A stretch of 64,000 nt of DNA from Chryseobacterium piscicola (GTDB taxonomy: Bacteria > Bacteroidota > Bacteroidia > Flavobacteriales > Weeksellaceae). The notes under the pieces are model-generated. The model searched no databases, was not told where the DNA came from, and was given only the letters and a program-made list of their open reading frames with translations. The DNA is taken from positions 186,001 through 250,000 of the forward strand of contig NZ_FTOJ01000005.1 in NCBI RefSeq assembly GCF_900156685.1. The letters are read 5' to 3'. Each line of letters opens with the position of its first letter. Position 1 is the first letter of the stretch. The position numbers and the translations under genes were made by a program. Shown here one piece after another: positions 16,554-26,864 of the stretch.

Positions 16554-16586
16554 TTAAAAAAATGTTAAAACTCCCTTAAACAAAGG
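16554..16586 (+). promoter_or_regulatory. Phased direct repeats (Pho-box-like) before the TonB receptor
   Basis: Three units with an exact 11-base period begin TTAAAAA (16554), TTAAAAC (16565) and TTAAACA (16576). The last ends 20 bases before the -7 box at 16603, so the array covers the -33 region where an activator of the OmpR/PhoB family would bind. The same arrangement occurs before the SusC gene at 20730-20773. Confidence 0.6.
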
Positions 16587-16602
16587 GATGAGGAAGTCAG
16601 GA

Positions 16603-16610
16603 TACCTTTG
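16603..16610 (+). promoter_or_regulatory. -7 box of the TonB receptor gene (TACCTTTG)
   Basis: TACCTTTG fits TAnnTTTG, ends 20 bases before the ATG at 16631, and has no -33 TTTG; the phased repeats take that place, as expected for an activator-dependent promoter. Confidence 0.7.
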
Positions 16611-16630
16611 CACATCTAATTTTAACAAAA

Positions 16631-19600
16631 ATGAAAAGAGTAAAGATTGTATTAGGATTATTGTTTTTAGGAATGGGTACTATGGCTTACGCTCAGACAA
16701 CTCAAGCCTCAATAATTGGGAAAGTGAATGGCGCAGGAAACGTGGGACAAGACAAAATTAAAGTAACAATTGTAAATGAATCTACAGGCTTTAGAACAGA
16801 AACAGTAACCAATTCTAGAGGAGAATACATTTTTAAAGAAATTCCTTTGGGAGGACCTTATACGGTGATTGTAAATGATGAGAAAAGAGAAGGCTATAAT
16901 GTGAATTTTGGAGATCAGGTTACGGTAAACATGAGTCTTGAGAATTCTGATGAAAAAGCTATCGGAGAGGTAGTAATCGTTGGGAATTTAAAAAACAAGA
17001 TTGGAAACTTGGGTGCTGCCACAGCAATTACTGCTAAAAATATTGGAATCTTGCCTGTAAATGGTAGAAACTTTACCAACCTTACCGAATTATCACCTTT
17101 GAGTGGTAAGGGTGGAAACTTATCGGGTCAATTAGGATCCTCAACCAATTTTACGATTGATGGGATGACTGCAAAAAACCCAACTTCTGCAGGTTCTACT
17201 ACAAGCAGAAGTAATGCTCCTTACTCAATTTCTATTGAGGCGGTGCGTGAATTTAAAATCACGACCAACCAATATGATGTTACATTAGGAAGAAGTGGAG
17301 GCGGAACGGTAAGCGCAGTAACAAAATCTGGAACCAATACGTTTACGGGAAGTGCTTGGGAATATTTAAGAACAGGATGGCTATCTAGTAAATACGATAT
17401 CAGAGGAAATGAGCGTGTGAATGATTTTTCAACATCTCAGTTTGGGGTGTCTTTGGGCGGTCCGATTATTAAAAATAAATTGCATTTTTTTGCAGCATGG
17501 GATCATCAGATCGATTCAAAACCTTTGCTTATTGCAGATGTTCAGAGTAATGCAGATGCGTTGAGACTTGGAGTAACCAAAGAATCTTTGAACCAGGTAC
17601 TCAATATCGGAAGAGCGAAATATGGTGTTGGGAATACGCCGCAATTTGGATCTTTTGATAGAGTAAGAAATTCTGATGCAGGATTTTTACGTTTAGATTG
17701 GCAGATTAATGAAAAAAACTTGCTGACCCTGAGAAATAATTTTACTTACGATTTTAATAAAAATGGATTGCAGGATAATACCGCAATTAATTTCTTTGAA
17801 TCGTATGCCAATGATAAAAATTTAGATAACAGTCTCTTGATGACTTTGAGATCAAATCTAAAACCTAATTTAACCAACGAATTAAAAGCGCAATATCTAT
17901 ATACTTTCCAAGACAGTTATCAAAATGATGAGTTGGGCAGAACGGTTCCAAGGGCAATTGTAGAGCGTGTAGCTTCTACGATTGACGGAAAAAGTTTTAC
18001 GACTAATATTCAAATGGGTGGACATCGTTTTGCTCAGGAGGGATTCAAAAATAATGTTTTCCAATTGGTAGATAACTTATATTACAATACCGATAAAATA
18101 AAATATACTTTTGGAGCAGACTTAATGTTTACAAGATCAAAATCGATCTACGGAAGTGAAGTTAACGGTAAATTCCAGTTCTTGGGAATTGATAATTTTA
18201 ATAATCTTACGCCTTACAGATATTACAGAGAAGTGCCTTTGGTACAAGATACATCGGTGAAATCTAGCATTTATAATTTAGGATTGTACGGTCAGATGCA
18301 GACCAAAATTGCGAAAGGTTTAGACTTAATGGCGGGTGTGAGATTTGATTACGGAGGCTATCCTAAAGCAGAATTCAACCAAAAATTGTTTGATCAAATG
18401 GGAATAAGAACCGATAACAAAATTAAATCCTTTATCATTCAGCCGAGATTCCAGTTGGATTGGAATATGAATGAAGGAAATAAAGATTTCTTAAAATTCG
18501 GAGCAGGAATTTTCTCATCAGATATTAATAACTATATGATAATTAATAATTTGGTGTTTGATGGGAATCATTTTGCTACAGTAGATGTCAATCCTACTCA
18601 GATTGGTCTTACGCCAAATTTCCCTGGGTACAGAGCAGATTATTCTACCGTTCCTTCGCTGCAGCAATATCAGCTTCCTACGATTAACTATACCGGAAAT
18701 GATGCAAAAATTCCGATTGTTTACAAAGCAAATATTTCTTATACCCATTTCTTCAACGAGAGATTAAGAGCAGGGGTTGCAGGATACATGGCTTTAGGTA
18801 GAAACAACTATTTCTATTATGACAGAAACATGGTTGCCAATCCTTATTTTACCTTGGGTAATGAAGGCGGAAGAGGTGTATATGTTCCTTTGAGCGCTGT
18901 TAATCCCGCCAATGGAACCATGAATTGGAAAGATGGAAGAATTAATAAAAACTTCGGTCGAGTTTTAGAGCTTGTGAGTGATGGTAAAGTCAATCAGTTT
19001 TCATTTGTAGTAGATACAAGCTATCGTTACTGGAAAGATGGAGAAATTACTGCAAGTTACACATGGTCAGACATTAAAGACAATACTTCATACAACGGAA
19101 ATGTAGCCAACACTGCAACATTGTCTACTTTGGTACAAAGTGATCCCAGAGATTTGAGAATGTCTTATTCTGATAATCAGTTTAGAAATAAAGTGGTTGT
19201 ATATGGAAACTCTCCTACAATTGCCGGATTTACTTTAGGAATCAGATATTCCGGAATTGGAGGTACACGCTTCTCTGTAACTTCCGGTGGAAACGTTAAT
19301 GGGGATTTTGTAGATACCAATGATTTAGCCTATATTTTCCCAAGTCTTACCCAAACTTTAATAGATAATCCTGAAGTGGGTGATGCATTAAAAAACTATA
19401 TTACAGACTACAACAACCAGATTGCCGAAAGAAATGGCGGTAAAAATGGTTTCTTCGGTGTTTGGGATTTTCGTATTGCCAAAAAAATTAAATTTGAAAA
19501 GATTGGAGGTTTCGAACTTTCTGTAGATATCTTCAATGTTGCCAATATGCTGAATAAAGAGTGGGGTGTCAATAAATCTTACGGAAATACAGCACTTTAT

Positions 19601-19720
19601 AGAATTACAGGTTTCGATCCTATTACCAAACAATTTAAATATAACTTAAATACAAGTGGTTTAGAGCCATTGTCGGGAAATCCTTACCAGATTCAGTTAG
19701 GAGCCAAATACACGTTCTAA
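16631..19720 (+). CDS. Oar-like TonB-dependent outer-membrane receptor
   Basis: 1029 residues with a signal peptide (MKRVKIVLGLLFLGMGTMAY, then AQ). Residues about 25-110 form a carboxypeptidase-regulatory-like beta-sandwich (ASIIGKVNG...RGEYIFKEIPLGGPYTV). A TonB-box-like segment GEVVIVGNL follows. The plug domain contains LPVNGRNFTNLTELSP, NFTIDGMTAKNP and GRSGGGTVSAVTKSGTN, typical of the Oar family, and the rest is a large beta barrel ending in an aromatic residue (IQLGAKYTF). It probably imports a ligand across the outer membrane with TonB energy. It lies directly before the phosphodiesterase gene and shares phased promoter repeats with the SusC gene, so a phosphorus-containing ligand is a reasonable inference. 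Confidence 0.9.
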   Translation: MKRVKIVLGLLFLGMGTMAYAQTTQASIIGKVNGAGNVGQDKIKVTIVNESTGFRTETVTNSRGEYIFKEIPLGGPYTVIVNDEKREGYNVNFGDQVTVNMSLENSDEKAIGEVVIVGNLKNKIGNLGAATAITAKNIGILPVNGRNFTNLTELSPLSGKGGNLSGQLGSSTNFTIDGMTAKNPTSAGSTTSRSNAPYSISIEAVREFKITTNQYDVTLGRSGGGTVSAVTKSGTNTFTGSAWEYLRTGWLSSKYDIRGNERVNDFSTSQFGVSLGGPIIKNKLHFFAAWDHQIDSKPLLIADVQSNADALRLGVTKESLNQVLNIGRAKYGVGNTPQFGSFDRVRNSDAGFLRLDWQINEKNLLTLRNNFTYDFNKNGLQDNTAINFFESYANDKNLDNSLLMTLRSNLKPNLTNELKAQYLYTFQDSYQNDELGRTVPRAIVERVASTIDGKSFTTNIQMGGHRFAQEGFKNNVFQLVDNLYYNTDKIKYTFGADLMFTRSKSIYGSEVNGKFQFLGIDNFNNLTPYRYYREVPLVQDTSVKSSIYNLGLYGQMQTKIAKGLDLMAGVRFDYGGYPKAEFNQKLFDQMGIRTDNKIKSFIIQPRFQLDWNMNEGNKDFLKFGAGIFSSDINNYMIINNLVFDGNHFATVDVNPTQIGLTPNFPGYRADYSTVPSLQQYQLPTINYTGNDAKIPIVYKANISYTHFFNERLRAGVAGYMALGRNNYFYYDRNMVANPYFTLGNEGGRGVYVPLSAVNPANGTMNWKDGRINKNFGRVLELVSDGKVNQFSFVVDTSYRYWKDGEITASYTWSDIKDNTSYNGNVANTATLSTLVQSDPRDLRMSYSDNQFRNKVVVYGNSPTIAGFTLGIRYSGIGGTRFSVTSGGNVNGDFVDTNDLAYIFPSLTQTLIDNPEVGDALKNYITDYNNQIAERNGGKNGFFGVWDFRIAKKIKFEKIGGFELSVDIFNVANMLNKEWGVNKSYGNTALYRITGFDPITKQFKYNLNTSGLEPLSGNPYQIQLGAKYTF

Positions 19721-19738
19721 AAATTTAATATTATCTTT

Positions 19739-19776
19739 ATGTAAAAGTCTTTCGGGGCTTTTACATTTAATTTTCC
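19739..19776 (+). terminator. Hairpin between the TonB receptor and phosphodiesterase genes
   Basis: ATGTAAAAG (19739-19747) pairs with CTTTTACAT (19758-19766); TTTAATTTT follows. It lies 18 bases after the receptor stop codon and 20 before the next ATG, so it could also be an attenuating intercistronic hairpin. Confidence 0.5.
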
Positions 19777-19786
19777 AATTTATATT

Positions 19787-20533
19787 ATGAAAAATTTTAT
19801 CTTAGGTTTAGCAGTTTTAAGCGCAGCATTTATGAACGCACAAACCCAAATTATCGCACACAGAGGTTATTTTCAAACCAATCCTCCAACCACAGAAAAT
19901 TCATTGAAATCTCTGGAGAACGCTCAGAATCTCAAGATTTATGGAGCTGAATTTGATGTGAGAATGACCAAAGACGGTGTTGCTGTAATTAATCACGACG
20001 AGCATCACGGAAATATGGAAATTTCAGAAACAAATTTTAAAGAACTTCAAAAGCGAAAACTTTCAAACGGAGAACAGTTTCCCACTCTGAAAGATTATTT
20101 AAAGAAAGGAAAAAAAGATAAATCTTTAAAATTGATCGTAGAAATAAAGCCAGATAAAACCAAAGAAAAAGAAGATGAGTTAACAGCAAAAACCATCAAA
20201 TTGATAAAAGATCTGAAACTCGAGTCACAAAGCGAGTTTATTTCTTTTAGTTTAAATATCTGTAAAGAAATTAAAAAATTGGAACCTTCATTCAAAGTTC
20301 AGTATTTGAAAGGAGAATTGTCTCCACAGCAGATCAAAAACGAAGGTTTGGATGGTATAGACTATCACTACAGCATTTTTCAGAAAAACCCGACTTGGAT
20401 TTCTGATGCAAAATCTTTGGGACTAATCACCAATTCGTGGACGGTAAATGATGTTGCCATTTATGATGAACTTAAAAAACAGGGAATTGATTTTGTTACG
20501 ACCAATATTCCGGAACAGTTAAAGAATAAATAA
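19787..20533 (+). CDS. Exported glycerophosphodiester phosphodiesterase
   Basis: 248 residues with a signal peptide (MKNFILGLAVLSAAFMNAQ). The GDPD family TIM barrel is shown by AHRGYFQ (H25, R26), TTENSLKSL (E38), YGAEFDVRMTKDGVAVINHD (metal-binding Glu/Asp and the second catalytic His) and VEIKPD. The C-terminus has the usual GLITNSWTVND...GIDFVTTNIPE. It would hydrolyse glycerophosphodiesters from deacylated phospholipids to glycerol 3-phosphate and an alcohol in the periplasm. It follows the TonB receptor by 66 bases with a hairpin between, and precedes the SusC/SusD/phosphoesterase genes, supporting a joint role in phosphate or glycerol-phosphate supply. Confidence 0.92.
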   Translation: MKNFILGLAVLSAAFMNAQTQIIAHRGYFQTNPPTTENSLKSLENAQNLKIYGAEFDVRMTKDGVAVINHDEHHGNMEISETNFKELQKRKLSNGEQFPTLKDYLKKGKKDKSLKLIVEIKPDKTKEKEDELTAKTIKLIKDLKLESQSEFISFSLNICKEIKKLEPSFKVQYLKGELSPQQIKNEGLDGIDYHYSIFQKNPTWISDAKSLGLITNSWTVNDVAIYDELKKQGIDFVTTNIPEQLKNK

Positions 20534-20554
20534 CTTTTACTTTTAATTAGATTG

Positions 20555-20588
20555 ATGTCTTGCAGTTGTCCTGTAAGACATTTTTTTT
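20555..20588 (+). terminator. Terminator of the phosphodiesterase gene
   Basis: ATGTCTTGCAG (20555-20565) pairs with CTGTAAGACAT (20571-20581, one G-U pair), followed by a run of T to 20588. Confidence 0.8.
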
Positions 20589-20729
20589 ATAAAGATTCTG
20601 AAAAATACAGAGAAAGATCATAAAGTTACATCCAAAACTTTGTATGCAGTGCATTAAGCTTCATTAATGTCTCTAAATGAGTGTATGATAGAGAGATAGC
20701 TTTATTTGTTAAGATAAATTAATAAATCG

Positions 20730-20773
20730 TTTAATAATTATTTAAAATATGTTAAAACCTTATTAAAACCTTA
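20730..20773 (+). promoter_or_regulatory. Four phased 11-bp direct repeats (Pho-box-like) before the SusC gene
   Basis: Four consecutive 11-base units begin at 20730 (TTTAATA), 20741 (TTTAAAA), 20752 (TTAAAACC) and 20763 (TTAAAACC); the last two units are identical. The final TTAAAAC ends 19 bases before the -7 box at 20789, the same geometry as before the TonB receptor gene. PhoB/OmpR-type activators are known to bind direct repeats with 11-base spacing. Confidence 0.65.
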
Positions 20774-20788
20774 GTCATAATGTCGTTA

Positions 20789-20796
20789 TAATTTTG
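20789..20796 (+). promoter_or_regulatory. -7 box of the SusC gene (TAATTTTG); excludes the TTG start at 20794
   Basis: TAATTTTG fits TAnnTTTG and overlaps a possible TTG start at 20794. Translation must therefore begin at the ATG at 20815, which also gives a normal signal peptide. Confidence 0.7.
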
Positions 20797-20814: not shown

Positions 20815-23793
20815 ATGCGTAAGGATACTCAAAAATTGCTTCTCTTATCCGTTTTAGGGTTGGTAAGCGTCAATATGGCGGCTCAGCAACAGATAAAGAA
20901 AGATACAGTGAAGAATATTGAAGAGGTTGTTGTTACAGCTCTCGGAATCAAAAGACAAGATAAATCATTAGGTTATGTAGCAGAAAAGGTAAATTCTGAG
21001 GTTTTTGAAAATATTCAGAACAACAACTGGGCTCAAAATCTGGAAGGTCGCGTTGCGGGTTTGAAAATTCAAACAGCAGGAGGTGGGCCTTTAGGTTCGT
21101 CTAGAATTACATTGAGGGGTGAAAAATCTTTTAATCTTGATGGTAATTACGCTTTAATTGTAGTAGATGGAGTTCCGTTAAGCAATTCAACCACTGGAAC
21201 AGGAACGGCAGCTTATGGAGCAGGAACAGGAGGAGATTTGCCAATCGATTTGGGAAATGGTTTAAACAGCATTAATCCGGATGATATAGAATCTGTAACG
21301 GTTCTGAAAGGAGCTTCTGCAGCAGCATTGTATGGTTCCAGAGCGGCAAACGGAGCATTGATGATCACTACAAAATCCGGGAAAACAAAAAATGGAAAAA
21401 TTAAAGTGTCTTTCAATTCATCATTAAGTTACGATTCTGTTTTAAAATGGCCAGATTATCAATATCAATACGGGCAGGGAACTTTAGCTAAGAATACTGC
21501 CGGGCAGTTTTTCTATTCTTACGGGGCTTCTGCGGATGGTGTAAGTACAGGAGGAACGAGCAGTGCTTTCGGACCAAAATTTGATGGACAATCTTATTTT
21601 CAGTATGATCCTAACCTTTTGGGCCAAAGCGCACAAAGACAATTGTGGCGACCTTATGAAGATAACATCAAAGGCTTTTGGGAAACGGGTGTTACCTCAT
21701 CCAACAATGTTTCTATTGAAAACAGCAGCAAAAAAACAAGCTACAGAGCCTCTCTTACTTACCTTGATAATAAATGGATGATGCCCAATACAGGTTTCAA
21801 TCGATTTAACATGGCGTTCTCATTCGATCATAAATTAACAGATAAATTCAAAATTTCAACCAGATTCAATTACGCAAATACAAAAAGTGACAACCTTCCG
21901 GGAACGGGTTACAACAATCAGTCGATTTCTTATTTTATGATTTTTCAGAATCCGAATGTTGATCTGGCTTGGTACAAACCCATTTGGAAACCAGGGCTAG
22001 AAGGCATTGATCAAATTCATCCTTTCAGCAGTTTTATTGATAATCCTTACCTCATCGCTTATGAAATGCTGAATGGTGTTGAAAAGAAAATGATCACAGG
22101 AAATATTTCCGGAACGTATGATTTTAATAAGAATTTCAGCTTATTGGTAAGATCAGGTATTGAAATGCTGGATGAAGAAAGAACAACCAAAAGACCATAC
22201 AGTTCTGCTAATTATTTGAAAGGATTCTACAGAGAGCAATATATTAAGAATAATGAATTTAATAATGATGTACTTTTTACATTCAAAAAAGATTACAACA
22301 AGTTCAATGTAAGTGCGAATGCAGGTGCAAGTGTACGTTATAATGAATATGTAATGACAGATTACCGTGCAGAAGGGCTGAAAGTTGCCGGAGATTACAG
22401 TCTCAATAATGCTATTTCTCAGCTTGTAAAAGTTCCGAAACCTTATGATCAGCAGACCAATTCTGTGTACGGATTATTAAGTGTGAATTATGATAATATC
22501 GCATTCATAGACGTTACAGGAAGAAACGACTGGAGCAGTACACTTCCTACACAGTACAGATCTTTCTTTTATCCTTCTGTAAGTACAAGTTTTATTATTT
22601 CAGATATTTTTAAATTATCTAGTACGAAATTTAATTATTGGAAGTTGAGAGCTTCTTGGGCGAAAGTAGGCGTTTCTGGACTTCCTTACCAGTTACATAA
22701 ATACTACACTCCGGATGATTTCATTGGCTCGGTTTTAACTCCGGGAACTTATCCCAATCCTCTACTGAAGCCTGAAGATAATACGAATATTGAAGCCGGA
22801 ATGGATTTTTCTGTTCTGAAAAACAGATTGAGTTATAATTTTACTCTTTATCAGAACGATACAGACAACCAGATAATTACAATACCTACACTTTTAGAAT
22901 CAGGTTATTCTAGCAGAATCATCAATGCCGGAAAAGTAAGAAACAGAGGTGTGGAAATGAGTATCAATGCAATACCTTTCAAAACTCAGAATTTCAGTTG
23001 GAATGTTTCTGCCAACTGGACGCTGAACCGAAATAAAATCCTCACATTACCAGACGAGTTTGCGGGGCAAAACTCATACACCATTTCTACCGTTGCTGGT
23101 GTTCTTTATTACAATGCAGTTGTAGGAGGGTCTTTAGGAGATTTGTATGGATTTAAACTGATGAGAAATGCCAATGGCGATGTGGTTTACGATGCTCAAA
23201 CAGGGTTGCCGGCAAGACCAGACAGAGTAGAAAAAGTAGGCAATGCATTCCCAAAATGGAGAGCCGGACTTCAGAACGATTTTAAAATCAAAAATTGGCA
23301 GATCAGCTTTTCTTTCGATGGGCAATATGGTGGAATGGCTTACTCACAAACTCACCACAAAATGTCTGAACAAGGTAAACTAGAAAATACTTTGATGGGA
23401 AGAGAAAATCCTAACGGAACCATCGTAGGACAGGGCGTTGTTCTTAATCCCGACGGATCTTACAGCCCGAATACAAAAGCTGTTGGTTTAGCTGCTTACT
23501 ACGGAGATTATTACCGAAGAGCCAATGTGGAAACCAATACTTTCGATACTTCATTTATTAAACTCAGAGATGCAAGAATTGCCTATTCTTTCTCTAAAGA
23601 TGTGATTGCTCCTTTGAAGCTTACCGAGCTTACTTTAGCAGTTTATGGTAAAAACCTCTGGATGTGGACCAAATTTCCACTGTTTGATCCTGAAGTTGCC
23701 TCACTCAATGATTCTACAATCACGCCGGGTGCGGAAATAGGTCAGTTACCATCGGCAAGAACTGTAGGTTTTCAGGTTAATTTAAAATTTTAA
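20815..23793 (+). CDS. SusC/RagA-type TonB-linked outer-membrane transporter
   Basis: 992 residues from the ATG at 20815 (MRKDTQKLLLLSVLGLVSVN...AAQQ signal peptide). A TonB box IEEVVVTALGI follows directly; the N-terminal carboxypeptidase-regulatory domain present in most SusC proteins is absent. The plug domain carries the SusC signature: NLEGRVAGLKIQT, ITLRGEKS, LIVVDGVPL, IESVTVLKGASAAALYGSRA and ANGALMITTKSG. The rest is the 22-strand barrel, ending TVGFQVNLKF. SusC forms a complex with the SusD lipoprotein, whose gene follows after 10 bases, and takes up ligands too large for porins. The gene is the first of a SusC-SusD-phosphoesterase operon controlled by the phased repeats upstream. 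Confidence 0.95.
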   Translation: MRKDTQKLLLLSVLGLVSVNMAAQQQIKKDTVKNIEEVVVTALGIKRQDKSLGYVAEKVNSEVFENIQNNNWAQNLEGRVAGLKIQTAGGGPLGSSRITLRGEKSFNLDGNYALIVVDGVPLSNSTTGTGTAAYGAGTGGDLPIDLGNGLNSINPDDIESVTVLKGASAAALYGSRAANGALMITTKSGKTKNGKIKVSFNSSLSYDSVLKWPDYQYQYGQGTLAKNTAGQFFYSYGASADGVSTGGTSSAFGPKFDGQSYFQYDPNLLGQSAQRQLWRPYEDNIKGFWETGVTSSNNVSIENSSKKTSYRASLTYLDNKWMMPNTGFNRFNMAFSFDHKLTDKFKISTRFNYANTKSDNLPGTGYNNQSISYFMIFQNPNVDLAWYKPIWKPGLEGIDQIHPFSSFIDNPYLIAYEMLNGVEKKMITGNISGTYDFNKNFSLLVRSGIEMLDEERTTKRPYSSANYLKGFYREQYIKNNEFNNDVLFTFKKDYNKFNVSANAGASVRYNEYVMTDYRAEGLKVAGDYSLNNAISQLVKVPKPYDQQTNSVYGLLSVNYDNIAFIDVTGRNDWSSTLPTQYRSFFYPSVSTSFIISDIFKLSSTKFNYWKLRASWAKVGVSGLPYQLHKYYTPDDFIGSVLTPGTYPNPLLKPEDNTNIEAGMDFSVLKNRLSYNFTLYQNDTDNQIITIPTLLESGYSSRIINAGKVRNRGVEMSINAIPFKTQNFSWNVSANWTLNRNKILTLPDEFAGQNSYTISTVAGVLYYNAVVGGSLGDLYGFKLMRNANGDVVYDAQTGLPARPDRVEKVGNAFPKWRAGLQNDFKIKNWQISFSFDGQYGGMAYSQTHHKMSEQGKLENTLMGRENPNGTIVGQGVVLNPDGSYSPNTKAVGLAAYYGDYYRRANVETNTFDTSFIKLRDARIAYSFSKDVIAPLKLTELTLAVYGKNLWMWTKFPLFDPEVASLNDSTITPGAEIGQLPSARTVGFQVNLKF

Positions 23794-23803
23794 AATCAAG
23801 CTC

Positions 23804-25252
23804 ATGAAAAAAATATTTTTATCTACCGCAATTGCTTTGTCAATTTTAAGTGTTACTTCTTGTGACAGAACTTTTGAAGAAATCAATACCGATACCAGTA
23901 AAATAAAAAATCCTTCTGTAGGCAGTTTTCTGGTTCCTATTCAGTATGATATGGGATCTTACGGTTACAATAGAGCAGATGATTTTACATTTGATATTAT
24001 GCAGGTCGCTCTATCTTTTCCAAATGAAGGAACTACAGTGAGCCGTTACTATCTTACAGAAAGTACAGGAAACGGATACTGGAATACAAGTTATAAATGG
24101 CTTAAACAGGTTAAAGAACTCAACGAAGCTGCCAAAAAAGAAAACAACAACAATTATCTAGCGATTTCAAAAGTTCTGAATGCTTGGATTATGGCAAATC
24201 TTACTGACGCTTTTGGTGATGTTCCGATGACCGAAGCACTTCGTCTGGAAGAAAATATAATGAAACCGAAGTACGATAAACAAAAAGATATCTATACATT
24301 CCTTTTGAATGACTTAAAAGAAGCTAACGCACTTTTTGATACTACAAAAACTTTAAGCGAAGGAGATCTTTTCTTTCAGGCAAATTCAAATGTTGCAGGA
24401 ATCGTAAAATGGAAAAAATTCTGTAATTCTCTTTCTCTAAGACTTTTAACAAGAGCTTTGAAGAAAAATGGCGAATTGAATATCAATGAAAGAATTGCTG
24501 AAATTGTAAACAATCCTACTGTTTACCCTATTTTTCAAAGTATTACAGACGGAGCCGTTTTAGATATTTCGGGAATTGCACCATTAATGCCACCCATCGC
24601 AAGACCACAAGATTTTACGGCATACCGTGCTACAGGAGAGTTTTTCACTCAGACTTTGGTAGACAATAATGATCCAAGACTGAGTATGTTTTTCACGCAG
24701 GCAAAATCTATCCCCGGAAATGCGAATATTGGTTACAAAGGCGCGCCTTCTGGTTATGCCTTGGGAACTTCATTCAATTACCAACCTTCCAATCTTAATC
24801 AAAATTTAGCAAAAGCTCCGCTTAAAATTTTAGTGATGCCTTATGCAGAGTTGCAGTTTGTTTTATCTGAATTGGCATTTAAGGGCATTATATCCGGAAA
24901 TGCACAGACTTTCTACGAAAACGCTGTAAAAGCAACTATTGAACAGTGGGGAAGTACAATGCCAACAAATTATTTTGCAAATCCTAAAGTAGCTTACAAT
25001 GGTACTTTAGAAAGAATTATGCTTCAGAAATACGTAGGATTGTTCTTTGTAGATCATCAGCAATGGTATGAGCAGAGAAGAACAGGATTCCCGGTTTTAC
25101 CAAACAACGGAGGTCTTTTCAATAACGGAAAAATGCCACAGAGAATGCCTTATCCTACCGTTACAAAAGTTCAGAACTATGATAATTATATTACTGCTTC
25201 ACAAAATATGGGCGGTGATAATATCAATACCAAAATGTGGTGGAATCAGTAA
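23804..25252 (+). CDS. SusD/RagB-like surface lipoprotein
   Basis: 482 residues with a lipoprotein signal peptide (lipobox SVTSC, C20). After the cysteine comes the SusD-like start DRTFEEINTDTSKI. The helical TPR-like core contains NAWIMANLTDAFGDVPMTEA, a hallmark of the SusD_2-type proteins, and KWKKFCNSLSLRLLTRAL. The C-terminal part has LQKYVGLFFVDHQQWYEQRR. SusD proteins act as lids over SusC barrels and help to capture the ligand at the cell surface. The gene starts 10 bases after SusC and is followed after 28 bases by the phosphoesterase gene. The ligand cannot be read from the sequence. Confidence 0.93.
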   Translation: MKKIFLSTAIALSILSVTSCDRTFEEINTDTSKIKNPSVGSFLVPIQYDMGSYGYNRADDFTFDIMQVALSFPNEGTTVSRYYLTESTGNGYWNTSYKWLKQVKELNEAAKKENNNNYLAISKVLNAWIMANLTDAFGDVPMTEALRLEENIMKPKYDKQKDIYTFLLNDLKEANALFDTTKTLSEGDLFFQANSNVAGIVKWKKFCNSLSLRLLTRALKKNGELNINERIAEIVNNPTVYPIFQSITDGAVLDISGIAPLMPPIARPQDFTAYRATGEFFTQTLVDNNDPRLSMFFTQAKSIPGNANIGYKGAPSGYALGTSFNYQPSNLNQNLAKAPLKILVMPYAELQFVLSELAFKGIISGNAQTFYENAVKATIEQWGSTMPTNYFANPKVAYNGTLERIMLQKYVGLFFVDHQQWYEQRRTGFPVLPNNGGLFNNGKMPQRMPYPTVTKVQNYDNYITASQNMGGDNINTKMWWNQ

Positions 25253-25280: not shown

Positions 25281-26864
25281 ATGAGCATAAAATTCTTAGT
25301 ACCAAGTTTATTAATCTCGGCAATGGCATTTTCTCAAACATCTGTTTCAGGATATGTGTTTGAAGATTTAAATAAAAATAATAAAAAAGAAAACCGCGAA
25401 AGAGGAGTTGAAAACGTAGCCGTGTCCAATGGAGCGCAGGTGGTATTAACTGATAAAAACGGAAGGTACAGCTTACCGATTCAGCAAGATCAGACTATTT
25501 TTGTAATCAAACCTTCTGGTTTTAAATTGCCTTTAAATTCAAACAATCTTCCACAGTATTATTATCAGTACAAACCAAAAGGTTCACCTGAAGATTTCAA
25601 ATATAAAGGTGTTTTACCAACGGGAGCGCTTCCAAAGGAAATTAATTTCGCTTTAGAAAAACAGGAAGAAAGCAAAAATTTTGACATCCTTGTTTTCGGA
25701 GACCCACAACCTTACACAGAGAAAGAATTAGATTATTTCAAGAGAGCAATTGTAAATGAAGTAAAAGGTACGAAGAAAAATGCCGTTTTCGGAATTAGTT
25801 TGGGTGATTTGGTGGGAGATAATTTAAGTTTACAAAAGCCTTACGCAGATGCGATGAAAGAGATTGGGCTTCCGTGGTACAATGTAATGGGAAATCATGA
25901 CATGAATTACGAAGCAAAAGAAGATATTCTTTCAGATGAAACTTTTGAGTCCAATTTCGGTCCTGCAAATTACTCTTTCAACTATGGGAATGTGCATTTT
26001 ATGGTTTTAGATGATATTTTATATCCCGATCCCAGAGACGGAAAAGGATATTGGGGAGGTTTCCGTGAAGATCAGATTCAGTTTATCCAAAATGATCTAA
26101 AGCTTGTAGACAAAAATAAACTGATTGTAGTGTCTTTTCATATTCCTTTGGAGCATACCAATGAAGACAACTTCAGAAATACAGACCGCCAAATATTATT
26201 TGATGCACTTTCACCGTTTGCAAATGCATTGCTCTTATCAGCGCACACACACATTCAGCAACAGATTTTCTACGGGAAGCCTCAAGGCTGGAAAGGTGAG
26301 AAAGATCTTCATGAATATAATGTAGGAACTACTTGCGGCGATTGGTGGTCCGGAACTTCAGACGAAATAGGGTTGCCAACTTCTACGATGAGAGATGGTA
26401 CTGCAAAAGGATATTCTTTTATCAGTTTTAATGACAATCAGTATAAAGTAAAATATAAAACAGCTGGAAAACCAGAAGATTATCAAATCAAATTATACCT
26501 TCCGAAAGTGATTCCTTTTCCTTCAAAAACTTCAGCCAAAGTAGTGGCAAATTTCTTCATAGGAAGCAAAAAAGACAAAGTGGAATATAGAATAGACAAT
26601 GGCAAATGGACAGTTATGGAATATAACGAAACGATTGATCCCAATTTTGCCCAGTCCGTTTTTAAATGGGACACCACGCAAGAGCTTTTCCCGGGAAGAA
26701 GACCATCTAATCCGGATTTGTCAAAACATATATGGATTGGCGGATTTGGGAATAAGCTCACTCTGGGAAAACATACAGTGGAGGTAAGAGCTTCAGATAT
26801 GTATGGAAATCAGTTTACAGCTTCAGAAAATTTTGAAGTAAAAGACAAGATTGTTATTCCTTAA
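25281..26864 (+). CDS. Exported calcineurin-like metallophosphoesterase
   Basis: 527 residues with a signal peptide (MSIKFLVPSLLISAMAFSQ). Residues about 22-95 form an N-terminal beta-sandwich (VSGYVFEDLNKNNKKENRER...DKNGRYSLPI) of the MetallophosN type. The catalytic domain shows all metal-binding motifs: FGDPQPY, ISLGDLVGDN, MGNHDMN, SFHIPLEH and SAHTHIQQ. A C-terminal beta domain (about 375-527) follows, as in the MetallophosN/Metallophos_C proteins of Bacteroidota. Third gene of the SusC-SusD operon, so it probably releases phosphate or cleaves a phosphodiester from the imported ligand in the periplasm. Substrate unknown. Confidence 0.93.
   Translation: MSIKFLVPSLLISAMAFSQTSVSGYVFEDLNKNNKKENRERGVENVAVSNGAQVVLTDKNGRYSLPIQQDQTIFVIKPSGFKLPLNSNNLPQYYYQYKPKGSPEDFKYKGVLPTGALPKEINFALEKQEESKNFDILVFGDPQPYTEKELDYFKRAIVNEVKGTKKNAVFGISLGDLVGDNLSLQKPYADAMKEIGLPWYNVMGNHDMNYEAKEDILSDETFESNFGPANYSFNYGNVHFMVLDDILYPDPRDGKGYWGGFREDQIQFIQNDLKLVDKNKLIVVSFHIPLEHTNEDNFRNTDRQILFDALSPFANALLLSAHTHIQQQIFYGKPQGWKGEKDLHEYNVGTTCGDWWSGTSDEIGLPTSTMRDGTAKGYSFISFNDNQYKVKYKTAGKPEDYQIKLYLPKVIPFPSKTSAKVVANFFIGSKKDKVEYRIDNGKWTVMEYNETIDPNFAQSVFKWDTTQELFPGRRPSNPDLSKHIWIGGFGNKLTLGKHTVEVRASDMYGNQFTASENFEVKDKIVIP

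Follow-up and report, generated by a model that had tools for sequence, protein, structure and literature searches.

The Pho box of Escherichia coli PhoB reads CTGTCAT and that of Streptomyces GTTCACC; Bacillus PhoP boxes are TTAACA-like, and cyanobacterial boxes read CTTAACCT. Here we describe tandem 11-base repeats with the core TTAA(A/G) upstream of two promoters in a 64,000-nucleotide stretch of the Chryseobacterium piscicola genome (G000:C22:186001-250000 within 3.45 Mb; hereafter the window), one before the gene for an Oar-like TonB-dependent receptor, which is followed by a glycerophosphodiester phosphodiesterase (GDPD) gene, and one before susC. From their arrangement we read these repeats as a tandem operator of the OmpR/PhoB type, most likely a Bacteroidota Pho box, and a PhoB-like regulator probably binds them and switches on both transcription units at low phosphate. 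In contrast to the Pho boxes of E. coli PhoB and others, this operator serves a TAnnTTTG promoter, and its binding by PhoB is putative. Bacteroidota promoters carry TTTG at -33 and TAnnTTTG at -7, as the first-pass annotation of this DNA also held.

Among the described systems the closest are those of Flavobacterium johnsoniae (PMC8115612; what is said of this paper and of the three others cited here applies to the available part of each). There, PUSI resembles our locus in joining a SusCD pair to phosphodiesterases, and the PhoBR operon (PUSIV), in which a TonB receptor and an FII lipoprotein adjoin PhoB and PhoR, resembles an arrangement found in C. piscicola. On phosphate depletion the TonB-dependent transporter (Tbdt) Fjoh_0545 and the FII protein Fjoh_0546 rise by log2 8.0 and 9.9, and the PF13620 receptor Fjoh_3841 and PusCD1 with its diesterases are also upregulated; the words 'promoter' and 'motif' do not occur in the main text of that study. 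Riemerella anatipestifer PhoP, from a related bacterium, is likewise an OmpR-family regulator, and its motif from DNA affinity purification sequencing, TTTAACA, contains TTAA; unlike here, that motif is likened to ArcA and linked with virulence and aerotolerance, and 'direct repeat' has no occurrence in the available text (PMC9603813). In Bacteroides fragilis, PhoB (BF1576) binds the pst promoter in electrophoretic mobility shift assays, and in a phoB mutant the pst genes and a phosphate/sulphate permease are down; the available text defines no box sequence and uses neither 'consensus' nor 'direct repeat' (PMC3547664). We found no sequence-defined Bacteroidota Pho box in the literature searched. 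Organic phosphorus uptake by SusCD-like systems in this phylum is already known from proteomics and RNA sequencing.

The first-pass annotation had placed repeats starting TTAAA at an 11-base period before both genes, three units at Oar and four at susC, and their coordinates were exactly borne out (Table). With distances taken between the first base of TTAAN and the first base of the TAnnTTTG box, the Oar units lie at -49, -38 and -27 and the susC units at -59, -48, -37 and -26, each from its own box; measured from the end of the heptamer, as in the claim of 19-20 bases, the same spacing is 20 bases at Oar and 19 at susC. Neither promoter in the window has TTTG at -33, again as described. For the proposed TTAAAAC repeat the 11-base phase stood, but the heptamer was too narrow, because TTTAA is found in the two susC units farthest upstream, which makes the core TT(A/T)AA.

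Register and period are both kept in relatives. We collected 69 family homologues of susC (30 loci, our own included, and 39 more); 61 of their promoters have a TAnnTTTG box near the matched start and were used for register counts, and 8 were dropped. TTAAN stands at -26 in 57/61 and at -37 in 57/61, with TTTAA at -48 in 40/61 and at -59 in 37/61, and at Oar promoters TTAAA stands at -27 in 9/11 and at -38 in 9/11. Conservation of the box in promoter set A1 is by construction, because that set was selected for TAnnTTTG. Three-unit TT(A/T)A runs occur at period 11 in 51 of the 69 susC regions, whereas no other period between 7 and 15 gives more than 2 (after dereplication, 16/31 versus no more than 2). 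Pairs discriminate less well than runs: 63/69 susC regions have a TTAA pair at period 11 but 50/69 also have one at period 10, and all 11 Oar regions have a pair at 11 but 9/11 also have one at 15. When 40 loci were surveyed for three-unit runs at 11 bases, these were found in 20/20 susC, 4/12 Oar and 2/20 GDPD upstream regions, in 0/20 for susD and 0/20 for the phosphoesterase, and in 8/192 for other genes, a background inflated because 5 of the 8 come from loci fetched for model hits. Of the eight, three belong to DNA ligase genes transcribed away from GDPD and another three to TolC of an efflux operon.

Each unit has 1.2-2.0 bits of information per column at its TT, the spacers that follow the last two units have 0.02-0.7 bits, and the spacer before the third unit is partly conserved. 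The two upstream susC units also take the forms TTTAAT or TTTAAG, and the nearer ones are mostly GTTAAAA; one relative (L047) has TTAAG at -26 and -37 and TTTAAG at -48. The promoters thus show two marks of a Pho box, namely at least two direct 11-nucleotide units that are partly conserved and partly loose, and a fixed promoter distance that replaces the upstream element (-26 and -37, each in 57/61). Loss from orthologous promoters, which the first-pass annotation had named among the outcomes that would tell against it, was not what we found: the phased units are kept across many genera. On these counts its proposals that both promoters share one operator, and that this operator follows the direct-repeat mode of OmpR/PhoB proteins, held up. 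Mean A+T upstream of susC is 0.76 and some units contain AAAA, which is what phased A-tracts that bend the DNA, or a UP-like element whose sequence is read by no protein, would lead one to expect. Such an origin is nevertheless very unlikely: the conserved core TTAA contains a TpA step, TTAAG units exist (L047), Flavobacterium units are NTAACA, and other upstream regions, at 0.73 A+T, have the ladder in only 8/192.

One genome alone shows little excess over chance. TTAAAACN4TTAAAMC (up to one mismatch) has 3 matches in the window, all inside the Oar and susC promoters, against a mean of 0.46 in the shuffled window, where 3 was reached in 1/100 shuffles; the simple pair TTAAAN6TTAAA stands out less (7 window matches versus 3.17 expected, with 7 reached in 3/100 shuffles). 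Genome-wide, period 11 has no clear excess (9 of 67 pairs versus 3-8 at other periods); three-unit ladders number 28 versus 15 in the control, and the pair followed by a box at 18-26 bases has 6 matches versus 1 in the reversed control. The genome scan for phased heptamers and a box that had been proposed came out only in part: the pair with its box exceeded the control, but just two sites in this genome, those at Oar and susC, were strong. Motif counting within one genome was rejected as evidence, as TTAAAACN4TTAAAAC (up to two mismatches) is rarer than in the reversed control (350 versus 547). Among 16 ladder loci inspected by eye, beyond the ladders of the window only that of TolC was noted in register with a box. 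An unremarkable period within one genome is what chance repeats in AT-rich DNA would give, and yet this explanation can be given almost no weight, because it is comparison that settles the matter, and register and period are kept across orthologues.

The genome contains five OmpR-family regulators, with best NCBIfam matches that are PhoB-like for one, of heavy-metal type for two and RprY-like for two, none reaching its cut-off. The kinase that follows the PhoB-like gene has PnpS and PhoR as its best matches. This gene is divergent from a TonB receptor gene that is followed by a lipoprotein gene, the order of the F. johnsoniae PhoBR locus and also that of 14/14 loci of genus g35 (taken as Flavobacterium); the identity of our lipoprotein as FII rests on position, because it has no Pfam or NCBIfam match. 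The promoter of the linked receptor carries the same ladder. Where the regulator has a VGERT helix, TTAA pairs at 11 bases are present in 27/33 dereplicated receptor promoters (3 or fewer at other periods) and three-unit runs at 11 in 15/33 (0 at other periods). In the second group, whose helix is VGGRT or VGDRT wherever it was read, 21/24 promoters have TAAC pairs at 11 bases and no more than 1 has them at any other period; five of these 24 (L217, L220, L223, L272 and L291) come from a set of 80 named-record loci and their helix assignment was not read. These counts leave out L386, L391 and L395, in which the divergent gene is not a receptor, L397, in which no divergent gene was found, and L206 and L208 to L211. 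With the ladder at the PhoB-linked receptor, the annotated Bacteroidota Pho-box form gained support, and we infer PhoB as the binder, activation as the effect and low phosphate as the signal.

The 80 named-record loci are nearly all Flavobacterium (59 distinct promoters) and give the consensus CATAACAAGT.c.TAACATGaACTTtACA; by eye, NTAACA units of the linked receptor lie at -37, -26 and -15 from TTTCTTTG. In L162-L174 the stretch between the PhoB-like gene and the divergent receptor holds, nearer the regulator gene, another conserved element, which resembles TTCACATAAAGTTAACAATA (TTCAC and TTAAC, 11 apart) and may serve the PhoB-like gene's own control. In F. johnsoniae CI04, which is not the strain of the expression study, a TTAACA-N5-TTAACA pair precedes a DUF47-PiT phosphate transporter operon, and the phoX and pusC promoters were not located.

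In the mechanism that we propose, an OmpR/PhoB-family response regulator would bind head to tail on the 11-base units through the core TTAA. It is most likely the PhoB-like regulator, phosphorylated by the adjoining PhoR-like kinase. Successive monomers at 11-base steps would come to lie on one helix face, with the promoter-proximal unit replacing the absent -33 element, and as this unit would cover the missing -33 place, activation by recruitment of RNA polymerase at TAnnTTTG is expected. Scarce phosphate would then turn on Oar-GDPD and SusC-SusD-phosphoesterase, and organic phosphorus would be imported and cleaved. With a box of fixed register, members of the phosphate regulon could be recognised from the genome sequence throughout a large phylum of environmental and gut bacteria.

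By Pfam matches to the open reading frames of the window, the cluster runs from the Oar-like receptor through GDPD, SusC and SusD to a calcineurin-like phosphoesterase, and the predicted functions fit phosphorus scavenging. The first-pass annotation had counted a glycerophosphodiesterase and a phosphoesterase among the controlled genes, and the Pfam families agree. As in the Pus systems, a SusCD-like pair is co-located with phosphodiesterases; unlike in those of F. johnsoniae, an Oar-like receptor and GDPD head the cluster, and no ECF sigma gene was noticed in it. The SusD families also differ (PF12771 here, PF07980/PF14322 in PUSI).

Table. Coordinates of the operators, promoter boxes, cluster genes and candidate regulator (positions in the window unless a contig is named).
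Feature	Position	Strand	Remarks
Oar operator, three 11-base units	16554..16586	+	TTAAAAAAATG at 16554, TTAAAACTCCC at 16565, TTAAACAAAGG at 16576
Oar promoter -7-type box	16603..16610	+	TACCTTTG
Oar-like TonB-dependent receptor	16631..19720	+	PF25183; PF13620 at 30.2 bits, just below its cut-off of 32.3
Glycerophosphodiester phosphodiesterase (GDPD)	19787..20533	+	PF03009
susC operator, four 11-base units	20730..20773	+	TTTAATAATTA at 20730, TTTAAAATATG at 20741, TTAAAACCTTA at 20752 and at 20763
susC promoter -7-type box	20789..20796	+	TAATTTTG
SusC-like TonB-dependent transporter (PusC-like)	20815..23793	+	ATG at 20815 is the probable start; the TTG start in the list (20794) falls at the end of the susC -7 box
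SusD-like lipoprotein	23804..25252	+	PF12771
Calcineurin-like phosphoesterase	25281..26864	+	PF00149, PF16370, PF16371
PhoB-like regulator	G000:C5:139417-140097		Best match PhoB TIGR02154

Further targets were sought with a sequence-only model (R1) of 46 Oar, susC and GDPD promoters; matches at those genes are expected because the model was built from them. In the C. piscicola genome it scores strongly at susC (E 4.5e-12) and Oar (E 2.1e-10), and the next match, at E 0.0076, lies within a coding region. Across the genus there is a match at E <=0.001 in 59/60 genomes, under the stricter filters that a search of over 40 genomes uses; 16 further matches were taken up and G266:C15:5904 was left out. 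Seven of the 16 (L142, L143, L144, L145, L146, L148 and L151) precede a fatty-acid hydroxylase gene with four or five TTAAA units at an 11-base period, and the sole NCBIfam match of the hydroxylase is the ornithine lipid hydroxylase OlsE, at 63 bits against a cut-off of 475. Four others (L147, L149, L152 and L153) precede the gene for a large type-IX-secreted choice-of-anchor-I protein (about 1018 residues), with the last unit, by eye, at -26 from CATTTTTG; in L149 this gene lies one small open reading frame past ppk and ppx. L155 and L157 belong to an efflux operon, L156 precedes a 332-residue protein without a Pfam match, and L150 and L154 have no gene start listed downstream. Phosphorus-type annotation is found at Oar, GDPD, SusCD, the phosphoesterase, the PhoB-linked receptor and the OlsE-like enzyme, with pit lacking the 11-base spacing.

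Several observations weigh against a PhoB-bound activator site. The PhoB-like protein reaches 208.1 bits on TIGR02154 against a cut-off of 296.2, and 191.4 against 270 on NF053854, and it is named only PhoB-like because it falls below these equivalog cut-offs. A heavy-metal-type paralogue scores 203.3 on the same TIGR02154 model; as all best matches are below cut-off and the two proteins are this close (203 versus 208), the case for PhoB rests more on the neighbours than on the score. The genome's own PhoB-linked receptor promoter lacks a three-unit run, and strong model sites in this genome number only two. At the hydroxylase the units lie, by eye, at -21, -32, -43 and -54 from TACCTTTG, about half a turn out of register, which may point to repression or to a different start site. 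As a PhoB target, the pit operon of the genus is not supported, its TTAA units being 10 apart and about 40-50 bases before the box. In F. johnsoniae CI04 the pair before the transporter operon is one of 9 pattern matches, compared with 8 in the reversed control. Loss of the Riemerella PhoPR pair raises pstS (PMC5399024), an argument against simple activation should the two pairs be orthologous.

A last point on this side is the ladder at TolC, where four or five TTTAA units with an 11-base period stand before the heavy-metal-type efflux operon in three genomes (L158 5400-5505, which is G000:C7, L155 and L157). By eye, the nearest units of this TTTAAG-N5 ladder are at -16, -27, -38 and -49 from CAATTTTG, a register shared with the phosphate-type ladders, and their code is close to that of the upstream susC units (TTTAAT or TTTAAG). 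A CusR-like regulator and kinase lie just upstream of this operon in C. piscicola. With five OmpR-family regulators available, the ladders of the window could be OmpR-family operators that belong to another member, above all the CusR-like heavy-metal type on contig C7. We consider this unlikely: the cluster content is that of phosphorus scavenging, the receptor gene that diverges from the PhoB-like gene has the same ladder, and the nearer susC units are mostly GTTAAAA, not TTTAAG. A PhoB-like binder might also answer to envelope or redox stress instead of phosphate, signals that have been suggested for Riemerella PhoP, in which case the element would not be a Pho box in function. The likening of the Riemerella motif to ArcA, and the Bat and cytochrome genes among its apparent targets (PMC9603813), lean in this direction. 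The same source reports, on the other hand, that PhoPR is upregulated in phosphate starvation, and the F. johnsoniae Pus systems and receptors are induced by phosphate depletion only, not by nitrogen or iron limitation (PMC8115612), and we regard a non-phosphate signal as distinctly improbable.

Returning to PhoB as the reader of the ladders, a single code for Bacteroidota PhoB is conceivable, in which 11-base units at about -26, -37 and -48 replace the -33 element. This code would be split into a TAAC dialect in Flavobacterium and some relatives (helix VGGRTIDVHIRKLREK) and a TTAA(A/G) dialect in Chryseobacterium and relatives (helix VGERTIDVHIRRLREK), box and recognition helix having changed in concert, and the heavy-metal-type paralogue would read the sister TTTAAG ladder. 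We put this scheme forward tentatively, at slightly less than an even chance; it would offer a case of an operator and a recognition helix changing together. A clean dialect rule was rejected: TAAC pairs at 11 bases are present in 21/24 of one group versus 2/33 of the other, but the rule is loose, because the TAAC group also has TTAA pairs at 11 in 20/24 and L105 and L106 have, by eye, TTAAN ladders at susC.

Some minor observations concern individual promoters. Among loci that lack Oar before GDPD, 4/9 have TTAA pairs at 11 bases upstream of GDPD, versus 3/11 with Oar, and 2/9 versus 0/11 have three-unit runs; that GDPD gains its own ladder when Oar is absent is suggestive at L077, L080 and L087 and not significant. 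Upstream of DUF47-pit, L333-L342 share a conserved element close to TGTTAACAAAACTTAATG, perhaps the site of another regulator, and TTTAC or TTAAC at 11 bases is seen by eye in several DUF47-pit promoters of genera g21, g28 and g10. Elsewhere in the C. piscicola genome, TTTAAA runs at an 11-base period lie near gene ends at G000:C12:59223-59261 and C12:63920-63958, in a neighbourhood that we read as phage-like small genes, and at G000:C22:171423-171474 (L121, L374) four TTAA units exactly 11 apart lie between two minus-strand genes, one of them amidase-like.

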